From NCBI RefSeq assembly GCF_018070025.1, contig NZ_JAGPYQ010000001.1, positions 496,001-560,000 on the forward strand: a DNA stretch of 64,000 bases, read 5' to 3'. Each line of letters opens with the position of its first letter. Position 1 is the stretch's first letter. The translations under genes and the position numbers were made by a program. Source of the stretch: Streptomyces liliiviolaceus (GTDB taxonomy: Bacteria > Actinomycetota > Actinomycetes > Streptomycetales > Streptomycetaceae). Below are positions 5,722 to 41,654 of the stretch, one piece after another. Under the pieces are notes generated by a model. That model saw only the letters and a list, made by a program, of their open reading frames with translations, searched no databases and had not been told where the DNA came from.

Positions 5722-6630
5722 TCAGCGGGCGGCCGCTCCGGCCAGCTGGTCCAGCGTGGCCGCCACGGCGGGCACCTGGGCCAGATCCGGCAGCGTGAGC
5801 GCGACGATCTCCCGCCGCAGCGCGGGCTCCACCGTCACTGTGCGTGCACCTTTGGGGCGTACGGATTCGATGGCCAGTTCGGGCAGGACCGCGACCCCGA
5901 GGCCCGCCCCGACCAGACCGACCACCGCCGGATAGTCGTCGGTCGCGAAGTCGATGCGCGGGGTGAAGCCGGCGTTCGCGCAGACCTCGACCAGCTGGGT
6001 CCGGCAGCGCGGACAGCCGGCGATCCACGGCTCGTCGGCGAGGTCCCCGATGGCGACCGTGCCCGCCCGGGCCAACCGGTGCCCCTCGGGGACCAGACCG
6101 ACGAGCCGGTCCGTGAGCAGCGGCCGGATCACCAGGTCGTCCCACTCCTCCGCGCCCGCGGGACCCGCCGCCGCGCCCTCGTACCGGAAGGCGAGTGTCA
6201 CGTCGCAGTCGCCCTCGCGGAGCATCTCGACGGAGCGCGGCGGTTCGGCCTCCTCCAGGGAGACCCGGGTGCCGGGGTGGGCCGCGCGCAGGGCGGCGAG
6301 CGCGGTCGGTACGAGCGTGGAGCTTCCGCTGGGGAACGAGACCAGGCGCACCCGGCCCGCGCGCAGCCCCGCGATCGCGGCGACCTCCTCCTCGGCGGCG
6401 GTCAGCCCGGCGATGATGCCCGCCGCGTGCCGCACGAGGGCCTCGCCCGCCTGGGTCAGCCGCATCTCACGGCCGGTGCGGATGAGCAGCGGTGTGCCGA
6501 CGGAGGCTTCGAGCGCCTTCATCTGCTGGCTGACGGCGGGCTGGGTGCAGCCCAGCTCGCGCCCCGCCGCCGAGAAGGAACCGGTGGCGGAGACGGCACG
6601 CAGGACGCGCAGATGACGGGCCTCGATCAC
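5722..6630 (-). CDS. LysR-family transcriptional regulator
   Basis: 302 aa. N-terminal winged helix-turn-helix (residues 3-62, SFSAAGRELGCTQPAVSQQM) and a periplasmic-binding-like effector domain (about 90-295). The effector is unknown. It is divergently transcribed from the MOSC gene with only 80 bp between starts, so the MOSC/SDR pair is a likely target. Confidence 0.9.
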   Translation of the reverse strand: MIEARHLRVLRAVSATGSFSAAGRELGCTQPAVSQQMKALEASVGTPLLIRTGREMRLTQAGEALVRHAAGIIAGLTAAEEEVAAIAGLRAGRVRLVSFPSGSSTLVPTALAALRAAHPGTRVSLEEAEPPRSVEMLREGDCDVTLAFRYEGAAAGPAGAEEWDDLVIRPLLTDRLVGLVPEGHRLARAGTVAIGDLADEPWIAGCPRCRTQLVEVCANAGFTPRIDFATDDYPAVVGLVGAGLGVAVLPELAIESVRPKGARTVTVEPALRREIVALTLPDLAQVPAVAATLDQLAGAAAR

Positions 6631-37221: not shown

Positions 37222-38583
37222 ATGGCTGCATACACAGGTGAGCGGACGGACGGGGCCACGCGGCGCGACGAGGCCGTTCGCGCCGCCGTGGAACAGGGAC
37301 TCGTAAGCCCCTCCACGCCCCTCGTCGCGCTCCTCGACACCACCGGAATCCGGTCCTCCGTAACGGCCCTGCGGGCGGCCTTCGACGCGGTGACCGCACC
37401 GGGTACGCCCGTGCTGCACGCGTTCGCGGTGAAGGCGACCCCGCTCGTCCCCGTGCTGCGGCTGCTGCACGGGGAGGGCATCGGCATGGAGGTCGCGAGT
37501 CCGGGCGAGCTGGCCCTCGCCCGCGCGGCCGGGGTGCCCCCGTCCCGTACGGTCCTCGACTCGCCCGCGAAGACCCCCTCGGAGCTGCGGGAGGCACTCG
37601 CGCTGGGGATCGCGGTCAACGCGGACAACCCCCAGGAGCTGGCGCGGATCGACGCGCTGGTCGGGTCGGCGTCGACCCGCTCGCCTCTGGGGCTGCGGGT
37701 GAACCCGCAGGTCGGCGGGGGTTCGATCGGGGCGCTGTCCACGGCGACGGCGACCTCGAAGTTCGGCGTCGCGCTGCGGGACGAGGGGGCGCGCGAGTGG
37801 GTCGTGCGGGCGTACCTGGACCGGCCGTGGCTGACCCGGCTGCACACGCACTCCGGGTCGCAGGGGATGCCGCTGGAGCTGATGGCACGCGGGGTGGCCG
37901 AGGCGTACGGGCTCGCGGAGGAGATCAACGAACGGGCCGGGCGACGGCAGATCGACACGCTCGACATCGGCGGCGGGCTGCCGGTGAACTTCGGCTCGGA
38001 CGTCCACACCCCGACGTACGAGGAGTACGCACGGCTCCTCGCGTCGAGTGTGCCGGGGCTGTTCGACGGGCGGTACGGGCTGGTCACGGAGTTCGGGCGG
38101 TCGCTGCTCGCCAAGCACGGCGTGGTGCTGGCGCGCGTCGAGTACGCGAAGTCGGCGGGCGGCCGGGCCATCGCGGTGACGCACGCGGGGGTCCAGGTGG
38201 CGGCCCGCACGGTGTACGCGCCCGGGTCCTGGCCGCTGCGGGTGGCCGCGTACGACGCCAAGGGGCGGCCCAAGACGGGGCCCGAGGTGGTCCAGGACGT
38301 GGCGGGGCCCGCCTGCTTCGCGGGCGACCTGCTGGCGGAGGGCCGGTCGATGCCGCTGCTCGAACAGGGCGACTACGCGGCGGCGCTGGACACGGGGGCG
38401 TACTACTTCGCGCACCACTACGGGTACAACTCGCTCGCGCGGCCCGCCGTGCACGGTTTCGGTCCGGACGGGGCCGGCGGGGTGCGGTTCGCGACGGTCC
38501 GCGCGGCGCAGACGCTCGACGAACTCGTGGCGGAGTCGGGAGGGGCGCACACGGAGGCGTTGACCCGCGCGAACCCGGCGTGA
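37222..38583 (+). CDS. Diaminopimelate/ornithine decarboxylase-like PLP enzyme (fold III)
   Basis: 453 aa. Lysine for PLP in HAFAVKATP (about residue 64), HTHSGSQG near 211, the phosphate-binding DIGGGLPVNFG near 250 and the EFGRS segment near 290. The C-terminal beta domain contains GPACFAGD and a Tyr-rich GAYYFAHHYGYN stretch. It resembles LysA but is more divergent, so the substrate is uncertain. No clear ribosome-binding site precedes ATG 37222. Confidence 0.82.
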   Translation: MAAYTGERTDGATRRDEAVRAAVEQGLVSPSTPLVALLDTTGIRSSVTALRAAFDAVTAPGTPVLHAFAVKATPLVPVLRLLHGEGIGMEVASPGELALARAAGVPPSRTVLDSPAKTPSELREALALGIAVNADNPQELARIDALVGSASTRSPLGLRVNPQVGGGSIGALSTATATSKFGVALRDEGAREWVVRAYLDRPWLTRLHTHSGSQGMPLELMARGVAEAYGLAEEINERAGRRQIDTLDIGGGLPVNFGSDVHTPTYEEYARLLASSVPGLFDGRYGLVTEFGRSLLAKHGVVLARVEYAKSAGGRAIAVTHAGVQVAARTVYAPGSWPLRVAAYDAKGRPKTGPEVVQDVAGPACFAGDLLAEGRSMPLLEQGDYAAALDTGAYYFAHHYGYNSLARPAVHGFGPDGAGGVRFATVRAAQTLDELVAESGGAHTEALTRANPA

Positions 38584-38762
38584 CCGGATCGAATCCGCGA
38601 ACCGGGAAAAGGCAGAAGGTCTGATTGTCTTCAGGGCAATCGACCCACACTAGCCAGCAACTGGCATGTTCCACAGGAAAATGCCCTATCTCTCACCCGT
38701 CACGCACACGTTGCGTAGCTTCTGCGTCACTCAGCTGAACCGACGGGCGGGAGGGAAGCACC
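38584..38762 (+). promoter_or_regulatory. Region upstream of the roadblock/PATAN cluster
   Basis: 179 bp that must carry the cluster promoter. It contains two small hairpins, GATTG-N9-CAATC near 38621-38640 and GCCAG-CAA-CTGGC near 38653-38665. No sigma consensus was convincing. Confidence 0.4.
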
Positions 38763-39161
38763 GTGCCCGGAATCGACGAGTGCCTGCTGGAGGCCATGAG
38801 GCTACCCGGAGCCCGGGGAGCCTCGGTGGTCGACTGGACCAGCGGACTGGCTCTGGGCACGGTCGGGGACTCACCGAACGGGGATCACGAGGCCACCGCG
38901 GCCGAGGCGGCGGAACTCGCCCGGCTCGCCGCGGAGCACAAGGCCTTCGCACCCGAGGAAGGAGCCGACTGGTCCGGCGGGCAGCCGCCGGTGGAGGACC
39001 TCATCGTCAGCAACAGGGACAGCTATCACGTCCTGCGTTTCGTCCGGACGACCTTCGACAGCAGTGTGTTCCTGCATCTGTGGCTGGGACGTTCGGACGG
39101 CAATCTCGCCCTGGCCCGAATACGCCTGGGCGAGATGGCGGAACGGCTGGTGGTGGGGTGA
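38763..39161 (+). CDS. Roadblock/LC7-like protein, copy A
   Basis: 132 aa. It aligns over its whole length with the protein at 40691: GA.GA..VD.T.G.ALGT.G near the start, DLIV.....YH.LR in the middle and NLALAR..L near the end. The pattern alpha-beta-beta-alpha-beta-beta-beta-alpha suggests a roadblock fold. Such domains are usually regulators of small GTPases. There is an insertion of about 10 acidic residues in the central helix. The following gene overlaps its stop. Confidence 0.65.
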   Translation: MPGIDECLLEAMRLPGARGASVVDWTSGLALGTVGDSPNGDHEATAAEAAELARLAAEHKAFAPEEGADWSGGQPPVEDLIVSNRDSYHVLRFVRTTFDSSVFLHLWLGRSDGNLALARIRLGEMAERLVVG

Positions 39162-40090
39162 CCACGATGGAAGCAGGCCCCCTGCCGGGACTGGGCAGAC
39201 CCGACCCCGACCCGCTCGGCCCACTCGTCCCGCCCGTCCACCCGGACGGCGCGGACGGTGCGGACGGGCCGGCCTCGGTCCCGCCCGTGCTCAGTCCCAT
39301 GCTCAGCCGGCTCGCGGAGGAGCGCGCCACCGGCGTACTGACACGGGATCGCGGAGTGCTGTACCTGGTCGAGGGCCAGGTGGTGCACGCCGAGAGCCCC
39401 GCGACCCCCGGGCTGGACATCCTGCTCACCAGCCGTGGGGCACTGGGTTCCGACGGCTGGTGGGAGGCGGTCTCGGAGGCGGGCGCCGAACGCCGTGTCG
39501 GACGGTTCCTGGTGGACAGCGGGCGGCTGGCCGCGGGCGCCCTGGAGCTGTGCCATCTGGGGGCGCTGTACGACGCCGCGTTCTTCACGCTCGGCGCGAG
39601 CAGCGGCCCGGCGCGGTTCCGGTACGGGGTCGCGCACTGGATCGGCCCCGTACGGCCGGTGACCGTGGGCGCGGTGGAGCGCGAGACACTGCGGCGCCGC
39701 GCGCTGCTGCACCGCATCTGGCCGGATCCGGACACGGACACCGCGGAACTCGTCCGGACCGCCCGTGCCGTCGACGTGGTCCTCCCACCGCGTCAGCGCA
39801 CGGTTCTCGACCAGGTCGACGGGGCGCGCACGGTCTCGGACATCTCACGGGTCCTCGGCCGGCCGGGGTTCCACACGCTGGTCGACGTCCGCCGGCTGGC
39901 GGCCGCCGGGATCGTGACGACCCGCGCGCGCACCGTCGAGTGCCGGGCACCGGAGACCGCCGCACCCCCCGTGTCCCCCATGTCCCCCGTCTCCACTGCG
40001 ACCGCCCAGGCGGCGCAGGCCGCGCAGGCGTCGGCGGATCCCGACGTGGCCCTGCTGCGCCGGCTCAGAGACGCATTGGAGGCCTTGTGA
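39158..40090 (+). CDS. PATAN/DUF4388-like protein
   Basis: 310 aa from a GTG that overlaps the preceding stop (GTGA); ATG 39167 is an alternative. Residues about 45-100 show the PATAN pattern LSRLAEERATGVLTRD, then GVLYLVEGQVVHAESP and a small-helix TSRGALG. A middle part (about 110-200) predicts as helical with a conserved VGRFLVDSG segment. A winged-helix-like part at about 215-270 (LDQVDGARTVSDISRVLG) and an Ala-rich end follow. PATAN proteins accompany roadblock/GTPase systems. No enzyme motif is visible. Confidence 0.65.
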   Translation: MTTMEAGPLPGLGRPDPDPLGPLVPPVHPDGADGADGPASVPPVLSPMLSRLAEERATGVLTRDRGVLYLVEGQVVHAESPATPGLDILLTSRGALGSDGWWEAVSEAGAERRVGRFLVDSGRLAAGALELCHLGALYDAAFFTLGASSGPARFRYGVAHWIGPVRPVTVGAVERETLRRRALLHRIWPDPDTDTAELVRTARAVDVVLPPRQRTVLDQVDGARTVSDISRVLGRPGFHTLVDVRRLAAAGIVTTRARTVECRAPETAAPPVSPMSPVSTATAQAAQAAQASADPDVALLRRLRDALEAL

Positions 40091-40614
40091 TCCGCGCGCT
40101 CCGACAGCGTGCCGAGAGGAGACAACTGATGGCGGCGGAGGCCGAAGTCCTCGACGAACTGCACCGGTTACGGGCCCGGGTGCCCCAGCTGACGGGCGCG
40201 CTCGCGGCCAGCGTCGACGGCCTGGTACTGGCCCAGGACACTCCGGGCGTGGAGCCGGAGGGGCTGGCCGCCCTCACCGCCGCCGCACTGGGGGTCGCCC
40301 TCCGCGTGGCGGACGCGACCGGACGGGGCGACTTCCGCGAACTTCTGCTGCGCGGCGAGCACGGCTATGTGGCGACCTACGCGGCGGGACCCTCCGCCGT
40401 ACTGACGCTGCTGGCGGGCGACCGGGCGAACGTCGGCCGGCTGCACCTCGAAGGGCGCCGCTCCGGCACCCGGATCGGCGAACTCGTCGAGGCCGCAGCC
40501 GAAGCCCAGCCGGCCCCGGCGGCCCGGCCCGCCCCGAAGGCCGCCCTCACCCCACGCAACAGAACCGCGCGCACAGCGCGCACGGTCCCCGGGCCGACCG
40601 GTGAGAGCCGTTGA
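40087..40614 (+). CDS. Roadblock/LC7 domain protein with a TTA codon
   Basis: 175 aa, GTG start overlapping the preceding stop. A roadblock domain of the MglB/CvnB type covers about residues 20-130 (LTGALAASVDGLVLAQD, then VLTLLAGDRANVGRLHLEGR). The Pro/Ala-rich C-terminal 40 aa is probably disordered. Leucine 28 is encoded by TTA (40168-40170), so its translation should depend on bldA. Unlike the conservons of Streptomyces, no GTPase, DUF742 or kinase gene adjoins it. Confidence 0.8.
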   Translation: MIRALRQRAERRQLMAAEAEVLDELHRLRARVPQLTGALAASVDGLVLAQDTPGVEPEGLAALTAAALGVALRVADATGRGDFRELLLRGEHGYVATYAAGPSAVLTLLAGDRANVGRLHLEGRRSGTRIGELVEAAAEAQPAPAARPAPKAALTPRNRTARTARTVPGPTGESR

Positions 40615-40690
40615 ACCCGGCCACACCGCACCGACCCGGACCGATCAGAACCGACCTGAACTGACCCGAACCGAAAGGACCGGCACCACC

Positions 40691-41065
40691 ATGACGAACA
40701 CCGAGACCGCGTTGAAAGAGACCCTGGCCTCCATCGAGGGCGCGACCGGAGCCGCTCTCGTCGACTACACCACCGGTATGGCGCTGGGCACGATCGGCGG
40801 CAGCAAGAGCTTCGACCTCACCGTCGCCGCGGCCGGCAACACCGACGTCGTCCGCGCCAAGATCCGCACCATGGAGCACCTGGGCCTGAAGGGCGAGATC
40901 GAGGACATCCTGATCACGCTGTCCGACCAGTACCACCTGATCCGGCTGATCAAGGGCCGGGGCGGCAACGGACTCTTCCTCTACCTGGTGCTCGACGCCA
41001 AACGCGCCAACCTGGCCATGGCCAGGCACCAGTTGAAGAAGATCGAGAGCGATCTGGAGGTCTGA
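40691..41065 (+). CDS. Roadblock/LC7-like protein, copy B
   Basis: 124 aa paralogue of the protein at 38763 (shared ALGTIG, YHLIRL and NLAMAR blocks). AAAGGA lies about 11 nt before ATG 40691. It lacks the acidic insertion of copy A. Together the two and the TTA roadblock protein could form homo- or heterodimers around the PATAN protein. Confidence 0.7.
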   Translation: MTNTETALKETLASIEGATGAALVDYTTGMALGTIGGSKSFDLTVAAAGNTDVVRAKIRTMEHLGLKGEIEDILITLSDQYHLIRLIKGRGGNGLFLYLVLDAKRANLAMARHQLKKIESDLEV

Positions 41066-41076
41066 GGGATCAGACC
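41059..41076. terminator. Hairpin made of two convergent stop codons
   Basis: GGTCTGA-GGGA-TCAGACC is a perfect inverted repeat; each arm contains the TGA stop of one of the two convergent genes. Short, so only a weak terminator candidate. Confidence 0.4.
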
Positions 41077-41654
41077 AGCACCCCGGCCCGACGCCGCGCC
41101 CCACCGGGCGCGGCGTCGCCCGCGGCGATCCCGGTGGCCCGGTAGCCCTTGACGCGCTGGCCCGCCGGAACGCCCGCACCGCGGCCGAGCCAGTCGACCC
41201 GCACCCACAGGAGCGACTCGGCGGCCCGTTCGAGCCGGCCGATCCAGGCGGCCTTGAGACGCAGGCCCGCTCCGGCGCCCGCGAGCAGCATCCCGCCCGC
41301 GGCCGGCACGGTGAACGCCGAGCCCAGGGCCACGGCGAAGGCGAGGAGCGCCCACCAGCGGTGCCCCCGGCGCCAGTTGCGTACGGTCACCGCCCGGTCC
41401 TGCAGCACGTCGTGCTTGCTCGCGCGGTCGGCGCCGCGGGCGAGTGCCACGTACCGTTTGCGGTGCGTCAGCAGGACGACGACCGCCGTGATCAGGAAGA
41501 GCGCGGCTCCGGCCAGCACCCCGATCCGCCGTCCCGTGATTCCGGGCACCAGTACGCCCACTCCCGCCGCGACGATCCCGAGCCAGCCCAGCGGTGCCGC
41601 TCCGGCCCGTACGACGACGGCCACCCGAGCAAGTCCCTGCCCTCCGCGCGCCAC
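41070..41654 (-). CDS. Membrane protein of unknown function
   Basis: 194 aa from GTG 41654, which has a perfect AGGAGG 6 nt upstream. Two pairs of hydrophobic helices (about residues 12-28 and 36-58; then 90-106 and 108-124) are separated by a basic loop with THRKRYVALARG and RNWRRGHRWW. The C-terminal about 70 aa is soluble and Arg/Gly-rich. No family is recognised. It converges on the roadblock cluster. Confidence 0.7.
   Translation of the reverse strand: MARGGQGLARVAVVVRAGAAPLGWLGIVAAGVGVLVPGITGRRIGVLAGAALFLITAVVVLLTHRKRYVALARGADRASKHDVLQDRAVTVRNWRRGHRWWALLAFAVALGSAFTVPAAGGMLLAGAGAGLRLKAAWIGRLERAAESLLWVRVDWLGRGAGVPAGQRVKGYRATGIAAGDAAPGGARRRAGVLV

Follow-up and report, generated by a model that had tools for sequence, protein, structure and literature searches.

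A GTPase-Less Streptomyces Gene Set Encoding Three Roadblock-Fold Proteins and One PATAN-Like Protein

The Gene Set and Its Flanks

Four co-directional genes, designated A, B, C and D, lie next to each other in the window, the term used here for the whole 64,000-nucleotide stretch of Streptomyces liliiviolaceus DNA that was analysed (Table 1). All four had been recognised in an earlier, sequence-only reading of this DNA and were confirmed at their positions; the four junctions that it counted reduce to three. The set is bounded by a PLP-decarboxylase gene and by a minus-strand gene without a Pfam family. The six flanking genes (peptidase M20, urocanase, the PLP decarboxylase, the gene without a family, an RpiR regulator and an aromatic amino acid lyase) include no kinase and no GTPase by Pfam scan, and a search of the 64-kb window with the GTPase profile (E ≤ 1e-3) gave no match. 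No promoter-like site was found in the region 38560–41200, and the two terminator-like matches there, both on the minus strand (0.8 expected), are uninformative.

Table 1. Genes and sequence features of the ABCD set, in window coordinates.
Feature	Position	Strand	Remarks
Gene A	38763..39161	+	132 aa; diverged relative of D within the D-type roadblock family; contains a variable insert
Gene B	39158..40090	+	310 aa; PATAN-like domain, winged helix, variable linker, conserved C-terminal helix
Gene C	40129..40614	+	MglB/CvnB-type roadblock; probably starts at ATG 40129; GTG 40087 opens a longer frame
Gene D	40691..41065	+	124 aa; predicted roadblock fold, family without a Pfam entry
GTGA stop/start overlap A/B	39158..39161	+	From the sequence; in frame as ATGA or GTGA in 75/76 loci
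PATAN/DUF4388-like region of B	39305..39634	+	PF14332, 20.8 bits, under cut-off
Winged-helix region of B, residues 185–258	39710..39931	+	
Conserved C-terminal helix of B	40037..40087	+	From the alignment; resembles CvnC tail
Purine-rich ribosome-binding site ahead of the ATG of C	40114..40122	+	Near-identical in the 19 loci inspected
TTA leucine codon in C	40168..40170	+	From the sequence

Conservation in Streptomyces

Related loci were compared using the best 80 of at least 509 that were confirmed (the 80 best loci); these are Streptomyces-type, one record being titled only 'Actinobacteria bacterium'. A, B, C and D are complete in 76 of the 80 best loci, and in the remaining four a contig end cuts the locus, about 750 bases or less from D. 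The genes occur together more often than by chance. No GTPase was detected in any of the 80 best loci with the GTPase profile (E ≤ 1e-3), so that the absence of a GTPase claimed by the sequence-only reading extends well beyond the window, while that of a kinase applies to the six flanking genes. Two GTGA overlaps had also been claimed. The A/B overlap is conserved among the 80 best loci, as ATGA in 69 of the 76 complete sets and as GTGA in six, whereas the B/C overlap is in frame in 11 of these 76 and is not a conserved start.

The genome of this strain carries a second set near a contig end, in which A, B and C are accompanied by a divergent D. The same-strand gene after C in this second set (L151:1675-3159; contig C1, near 8.42 Mb) encodes an HD_5 protein (145 bits) with HDVGK and GSGYP motifs, which we take to be HD-GYP-like. 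A third D gene is found at G000:C2:1498635-1499006 (L152), with no A, B or C nearby.

Gene C Encodes an MglB-Type Roadblock

C matches Robl_LC7 of Pfam at 66.9 bits and, among PDB sequences, CvnB5 (E 1.2e-6) and MglB (E 0.0011); its homology to CvnB reaches 99.5% by hhalign. By these profile matches it is clearly an MglB-type roadblock protein, and it supplies the feature of this kind that is seen in MglA/MglB modules.

A purine-rich site of almost unchanged sequence (GAGAGGAG in 18 loci, GAAAGGAG in one) is followed by an in-frame ATG in all 19 loci inspected. The equivalent ATG in the window, at 40129, lies 38 nt past the stop of B and, because it is shared in this way, is the most likely start of C. 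A translational overlap with B as the conserved start of C was considered and rejected, given the low in-frame count above and the downstream ATG of the 19 loci.

The sequence-only reading described one member of the set as TTA-gated. This applies to C of the present strain and of a few others: a TTA codon occurs in 7 of the 78 C genes of relatives (matched stretches in the 80 best loci), and bldA gating as a conserved trait was rejected on this count. For comparison, the codon is seen in 12 of 80 rows for A (four of these rows being D itself in contig-cut loci), in 1 of 76 for B and in none of 80 for D, again within matched stretches of the 80 best loci.

Genes A and D Represent a Second Roadblock Family

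A reaches 19.4 bits against Robl_LC7, below the cut-off of 23 bits, and window D matches no Pfam family at E ≤ 10. Two of 12 D rows touch LAMTOR5 (best E 0.0019), and the D part of a fusion protein described below (L246) scores 12 bits against Robl_LC7. A and D are 33% identical and align by hhalign at 99.8%; on this comparison A is a diverged homologue of D. A also aligns to C (hhalign 60%, pairwise E 8.7e-5). Direct comparison of D and C profiles is weak (hhalign 1.1%, E 0.048 over 102 columns), and the link between D and the roadblock of C rests for this reason on A and on the structure model of D. The AF2 model (pLDDT 89, pTM 0.84) is a confident roadblock, backed by Foldseek and VIA, and D is accordingly predicted to have the roadblock fold. 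Foldseek ranked MglC first, yet VIA aligns D better with other roadblocks and the sequence is unsupportive, and D is for these reasons not taken to be an MglC orthologue. The proposal of three roadblock-fold proteins around a PATAN-like protein is thus borne out on comparison of the folds: by profile for C, by model for D, by homology to D for A and by a sub-cut-off DUF4388 match for B.

The D-family profile, which also finds A, was run on three overlapping samples and matched 186 of 200 genomes in that of the Streptomycetaceae, 112 of 393 in that of the class and 19 of 296 in that of the phylum; a few of the matches are weak or fragments. D relatives are present in 28 plasmid records, which include Actinomycetota, Deinococcota, Pseudomonadota and Hymenobacter (Bacteroidota, 38–41% identity). 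The D family is a roadblock family not described so far in the open-licence literature searched; it is separate, spans four phyla and sits with GTPases in some lineages. No D match was found in annotated phage records. D-type genes are found in three contigs of a viral collection (L244, L245 and L247; near 5935–6339; 37–41% G+C), in which apparent terminase or HNH genes near D were read by eye. In plasmid unnamed6 of Deinococcus sp. QL22 (L104:6001-6353), D is unannotated and lies in two frames, reflecting a frameshift or a sequencing error.

Gene B Combines a PATAN-Like Domain with a Winged Helix

At 20.8 bits, B falls short of the 25 bits that Pfam sets as the cut-off for DUF4388 (PATAN), and a Foldseek search with B was negative at E ≤ 0.001. 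A profile search of the genome placed DUF4388 in two places, one in each set; B of the second set scores 29.3 bits in that search, over the cut-off, and 23.6 in another scan.

The second half of B bears on a possible relationship to conservons. Window B has no DUF742 hit in Pfam, and B of a relative hits DUF742 at E 0.027, where HTH_20 fits better, so that the winged-helix match may be generic. Aligned to a CvnC set of 12 rows, one of them (L143) in the wrong frame, the winged helix of B gives a pairwise E of 0.0013 over 71 columns, at a probability of 18%. A model was then built from the tails of 11 CvnC proteins, without L143, and 114 C-termini were scored against it. The four top places went to B tails (12.8, 10.7 for window B, 10.1 and 8.9), and the best C-terminus not from B scored 8.4; lower scores were obtained for other B tails, namely 7.0 for one that was part of the control set, 6.1 for L040 and 2.7 for L106. 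These comparisons are suggestive of a resemblance between the second half of B and CvnC, for which reason the earlier statement that no DUF742 protein is present may be too strong.

One explanation that would accommodate them is that ABCD is a stripped-down conservon, in which C stands for CvnB and B for CvnC with a PATAN domain in front, the kinase and the GTPase having been lost and a transcriptional co-regulator left. The homology of C to CvnB, the four top tail scores and the 71-column winged-helix alignment all favour such an origin. The low hhalign probability to CvnC, obtained with a wrong row in the set, the B tails that fall under the best score of a non-B protein and the better fit of HTH_20 argue against it, as do the fusions described in the next section, and we consider it improbable.

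Other Architectures of the Four Genes

A further 77 loci were profiled, comprising plasmid records, two further places in the genome of this strain, loci of the phylum sample and 40 regions picked from the class-sample list; as these 40 were hand-picked, proportions among the 77 are not rates. The four genes are in line in 16 loci, and A, B and C occur with a divergent D in four. Nine have an A-D pair without B and C, four have B with D and C, one has B with D and two have D with C. In four (L103, L154, L158 and L160) D is found with a GTPase and a roadblock gene, one (L100) has by profiles a roadblock with D, and one (L174) has A with a fragment of B and no D. The other 35 hold D alone by profiles, including L104 and L169, both of which have a DUF4388 part, and L165 and L166, where a conservon-type GTPase and a roadblock lie about 3–4 kb off.

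The Acinetobacter record L100 is circular, and a GTPase match at its positions 4–489 immediately precedes the roadblock gene, on the same strand, when the record is read across its start; this brings the GTPase-adjacent D loci to five of 77. The GTPase of L160 scores 46.1 bits, over the cut-off, while that of L154 scores 22.1, and both the GTPase and the roadblock of L154 are under Pfam cut-offs. In Agarilytica (L103), D accompanies a BLUF protein (80.8 bits), a GTPase (ATP_bind_1, 33.1 bits, over the cut-off) and a roadblock (36.1 bits). No GTPase was detected with the GTPase profile in the fetched stretches of the 20 further loci with A, B, C and D, nor in any fetched stretch holding both A and B. 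An adjacent GTPase is therefore not a feature of most relatives.

A DUF4388 domain precedes D within one polypeptide in L246, a contig of the viral collection (61.2 bits), and in Deinococcus (L169, 60.1 bits), and a DUF4388 gene (55.4 bits) adjoins D in L104. The fusions, which are outside Actinomycetota or of unknown host, point to a PATAN/D origin and not to a conservon origin.

Several other observations were made at these loci. D, BLUF, Ras-like GTPase and roadblock form one run in Agarilytica plasmid pSU2 (L103:6001-8072), possibly a light-controlled small-GTPase operon. A gene for a 382-aa protein without a Pfam match (L160:3878-5026) overlaps the end of the D-GTPase-roadblock run and may be a further component. 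Oxidative-stress genes (catalase, Dps, Ohr, OsmC, katG and Fur) are annotated less than 6 kb from D in L103, L104, L169 and L177.

A roadblock tree of 56 rows contains a branch (99/100) that splits 35 C rows and L160 from 16 CvnB-labelled rows together with L103, L154, L158 and L100. The root is arbitrary, L160, L100 and L103 are on long branches, and 14 of the 16 CvnB-labelled rows are from the genome of this strain. One of these 14 (L007; G000:C1:912866-913141) is a roadblock match in an 844-aa open frame with no GTPase match nearby.

GTPases Elsewhere in the Genomes

Roadblock proteins are regulators of small GTPases. With no GTPase in the set, ABCD would be either a stand-alone signalling platform or one that borrows a GTPase from elsewhere in the cell. 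The genome of this strain has 12 CvnD-type GTPases and 17 roadblock matches. All 12 GTPases are within about 0.85 kb of a roadblock match, so none is unclaimed. CvnD-type GTPases were present in every genome tested that carries A, B and C (the ABC genomes: this strain and 14 others, 15 in all), and no GTPase-free genome with the three genes was found among these 15. MglA/CvnD-type GTPases were found in 39 of 43 D-positive genomes tested, and none was detectable in the other four (G511, G552, G208 and G125). In the stretches read, D stands alone in these four genomes; the D of G125 is a fragment, and 80 of 83 candidates were scored in G552. All 14 D-negative Streptomycetaceae genomes have GTPase matches, 6–11 each. 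Together with the four D-positive genomes, they indicate that GTPases do not need D and that D does not need GTPases. The co-occurrence with MglA/CvnD-type GTPases that the sequence-only reading had put forward as a check is complete for the 15 ABC genomes tested and incomplete for D.

These data bear on an alternative in which ABCD controls a GTPase encoded elsewhere, in trans. The target would be at least one CvnD protein of the conservons, for which C, together with A and D, would serve as a GAP, as an exchange factor or as a sink, while B would carry the output. The presence of CvnD-type GTPases in all the ABC genomes tested, 12 of them in this strain, is in keeping with such a role, as are the five loci in which D adjoins a GTPase and a roadblock gene. 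A precedent is offered by Myxococcus MglA, whose partners, according to the available part of PMC4316618, include response regulators outside its gene neighbourhood. However, the GTPases of this strain already have roadblocks close by, the C rows separate from the CvnB rows in the tree, D-negative Streptomycetaceae genomes are well supplied with GTPases and four genomes have D with none detectable; among the GTPase-adjacent loci, both partners in L154 are sub-threshold. Regulation in trans is a real possibility, to which we assign a good deal less than an even chance.

A Proposed Signalling Platform

We judge the chances to be about even that ABCD constitutes a signalling platform in the cytoplasm, conserved in Actinomycetes, that is related to MglA/MglB/PATAN systems and has no GTPase gene of its own, and we infer for it complexes, docking and a GTPase-free mode of working. 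C would form an MglB-like roadblock homodimer. A and D, which belong to the second roadblock family, would bind one another, or lie stacked on C in the way that MglC lies on MglB in Myxococcus, or both. B would be the output, its PATAN part and winged helix carrying the signal, and its conserved C-terminal helix might dock on the roadblock stack in the manner of the C-terminal helix of RomR on MglC. Both the stack and the docking of B are expected by analogy with MglB-MglC-RomR.

In favour of this platform are the lack of any GTPase-profile match in the window, in the 80 best loci and in the fetched stretches of the 20 further loci with A, B, C and D, the roadblock neighbours of all 12 GTPases of this strain, the separation of the C rows from the CvnB rows, the joining of PATAN and D in L246, L169 and L104, and the nine A-D pairs that lack B and C. 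Of the 43 D-positive genomes, the four in which no GTPase was detectable suggest that D, at least, needs none; the CvnD-type GTPases of all 15 ABC genomes mean that a borrowed GTPase fits as well. Speaking against the platform are also the lone D of those four genomes, the GTPase next to D in five of 77 loci, the sub-cut-off PATAN match of B and its negative Foldseek search, and the GTPase-adjacent roadblock of L160, which falls, on its long branch, among the C rows. A fuller proposal is put forward tentatively, at clearly less than even probability: that Actinomycetes possess a GTPase-independent platform made of three roadblocks of two families and a PATAN/winged-helix effector, which would sense and relay signals as a switch without any G protein, and that the D family may be a general adaptor by which roadblock dimers are linked to PATAN effectors or to GTPase/BLUF sensors.

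A Streptomyces-wide set of three roadblocks without a GTPase makes roadblock signalling on its own directly testable, and the D family adds an undescribed roadblock family found alongside PATAN, BLUF and GTPase genes, and in four phyla.

Comparison with Known Systems

PATAN (DUF4388) genes were reportedly noted near MglA/MglB genes by Makarova in 2006. The present set is alike in having a PATAN protein beside roadblock genes; it differs in having no GTPase, and PATAN is also found fused to, or beside, a D-type roadblock (in Deinococcus plasmids and one viral-collection contig). In the open-licence literature searched, no paper was found on roadblock and DUF4388 together, in Streptomyces or otherwise; nor did it yield a description of the complete set, of the D family, of PATAN fused to D or of the BLUF-GTPase-roadblock-D operon. 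A paper on the PATAN domain and roadblock proteins (PMC11580455) does not, in its available part, treat the ABCD set.

Conservons (AGPS, CvnA-D), as set out in the available portions of PMC13343842 and PMC8510531, share with ABCD an MglB-type roadblock (C), overlapping genes and possibly, in B, a CvnC-like winged helix and C-terminal helix. They differ in that ABCD lacks a GTPase and has no kinase among its six flanking genes, in that C separates from the CvnB rows in the tree, and in that ABCD has two extra roadblocks of another family and a PATAN domain.

In the MglA-MglB-MglC-RomR system of Myxococcus, an MglC dimer is sandwiched between MglB dimers without use of the MglA-binding C-terminal region of MglB (PMC7949163), and the C-terminal helix of RomR binds MglC at 2.6 nM (PMC12719032). 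As far as the accessible parts of these two sources go, both systems bring together more than one roadblock family and a partner with a C-terminal helix; C is MglB-like, and D has the predicted roadblock fold common to MglB and MglC. In contrast, ABCD is without a GTPase, and B is a PATAN and winged-helix protein, not a response regulator.

A precedent for C comes from Wuichet and Sogaard-Andersen (2014; PMC4316618), who, in the part of the paper available, describe a small actinobacterial MglB clade made up exclusively of orphans with no flanking conservon genes, and also PATAN genes near some MglA groups. That part has no mention of A, B or D as neighbours of the orphan clade. The description fits C, which, judged by it, probably belongs to the clade. 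The orphan MglB clade described in PMC4316618 would thereby gain A, B and D as a likely partner set.
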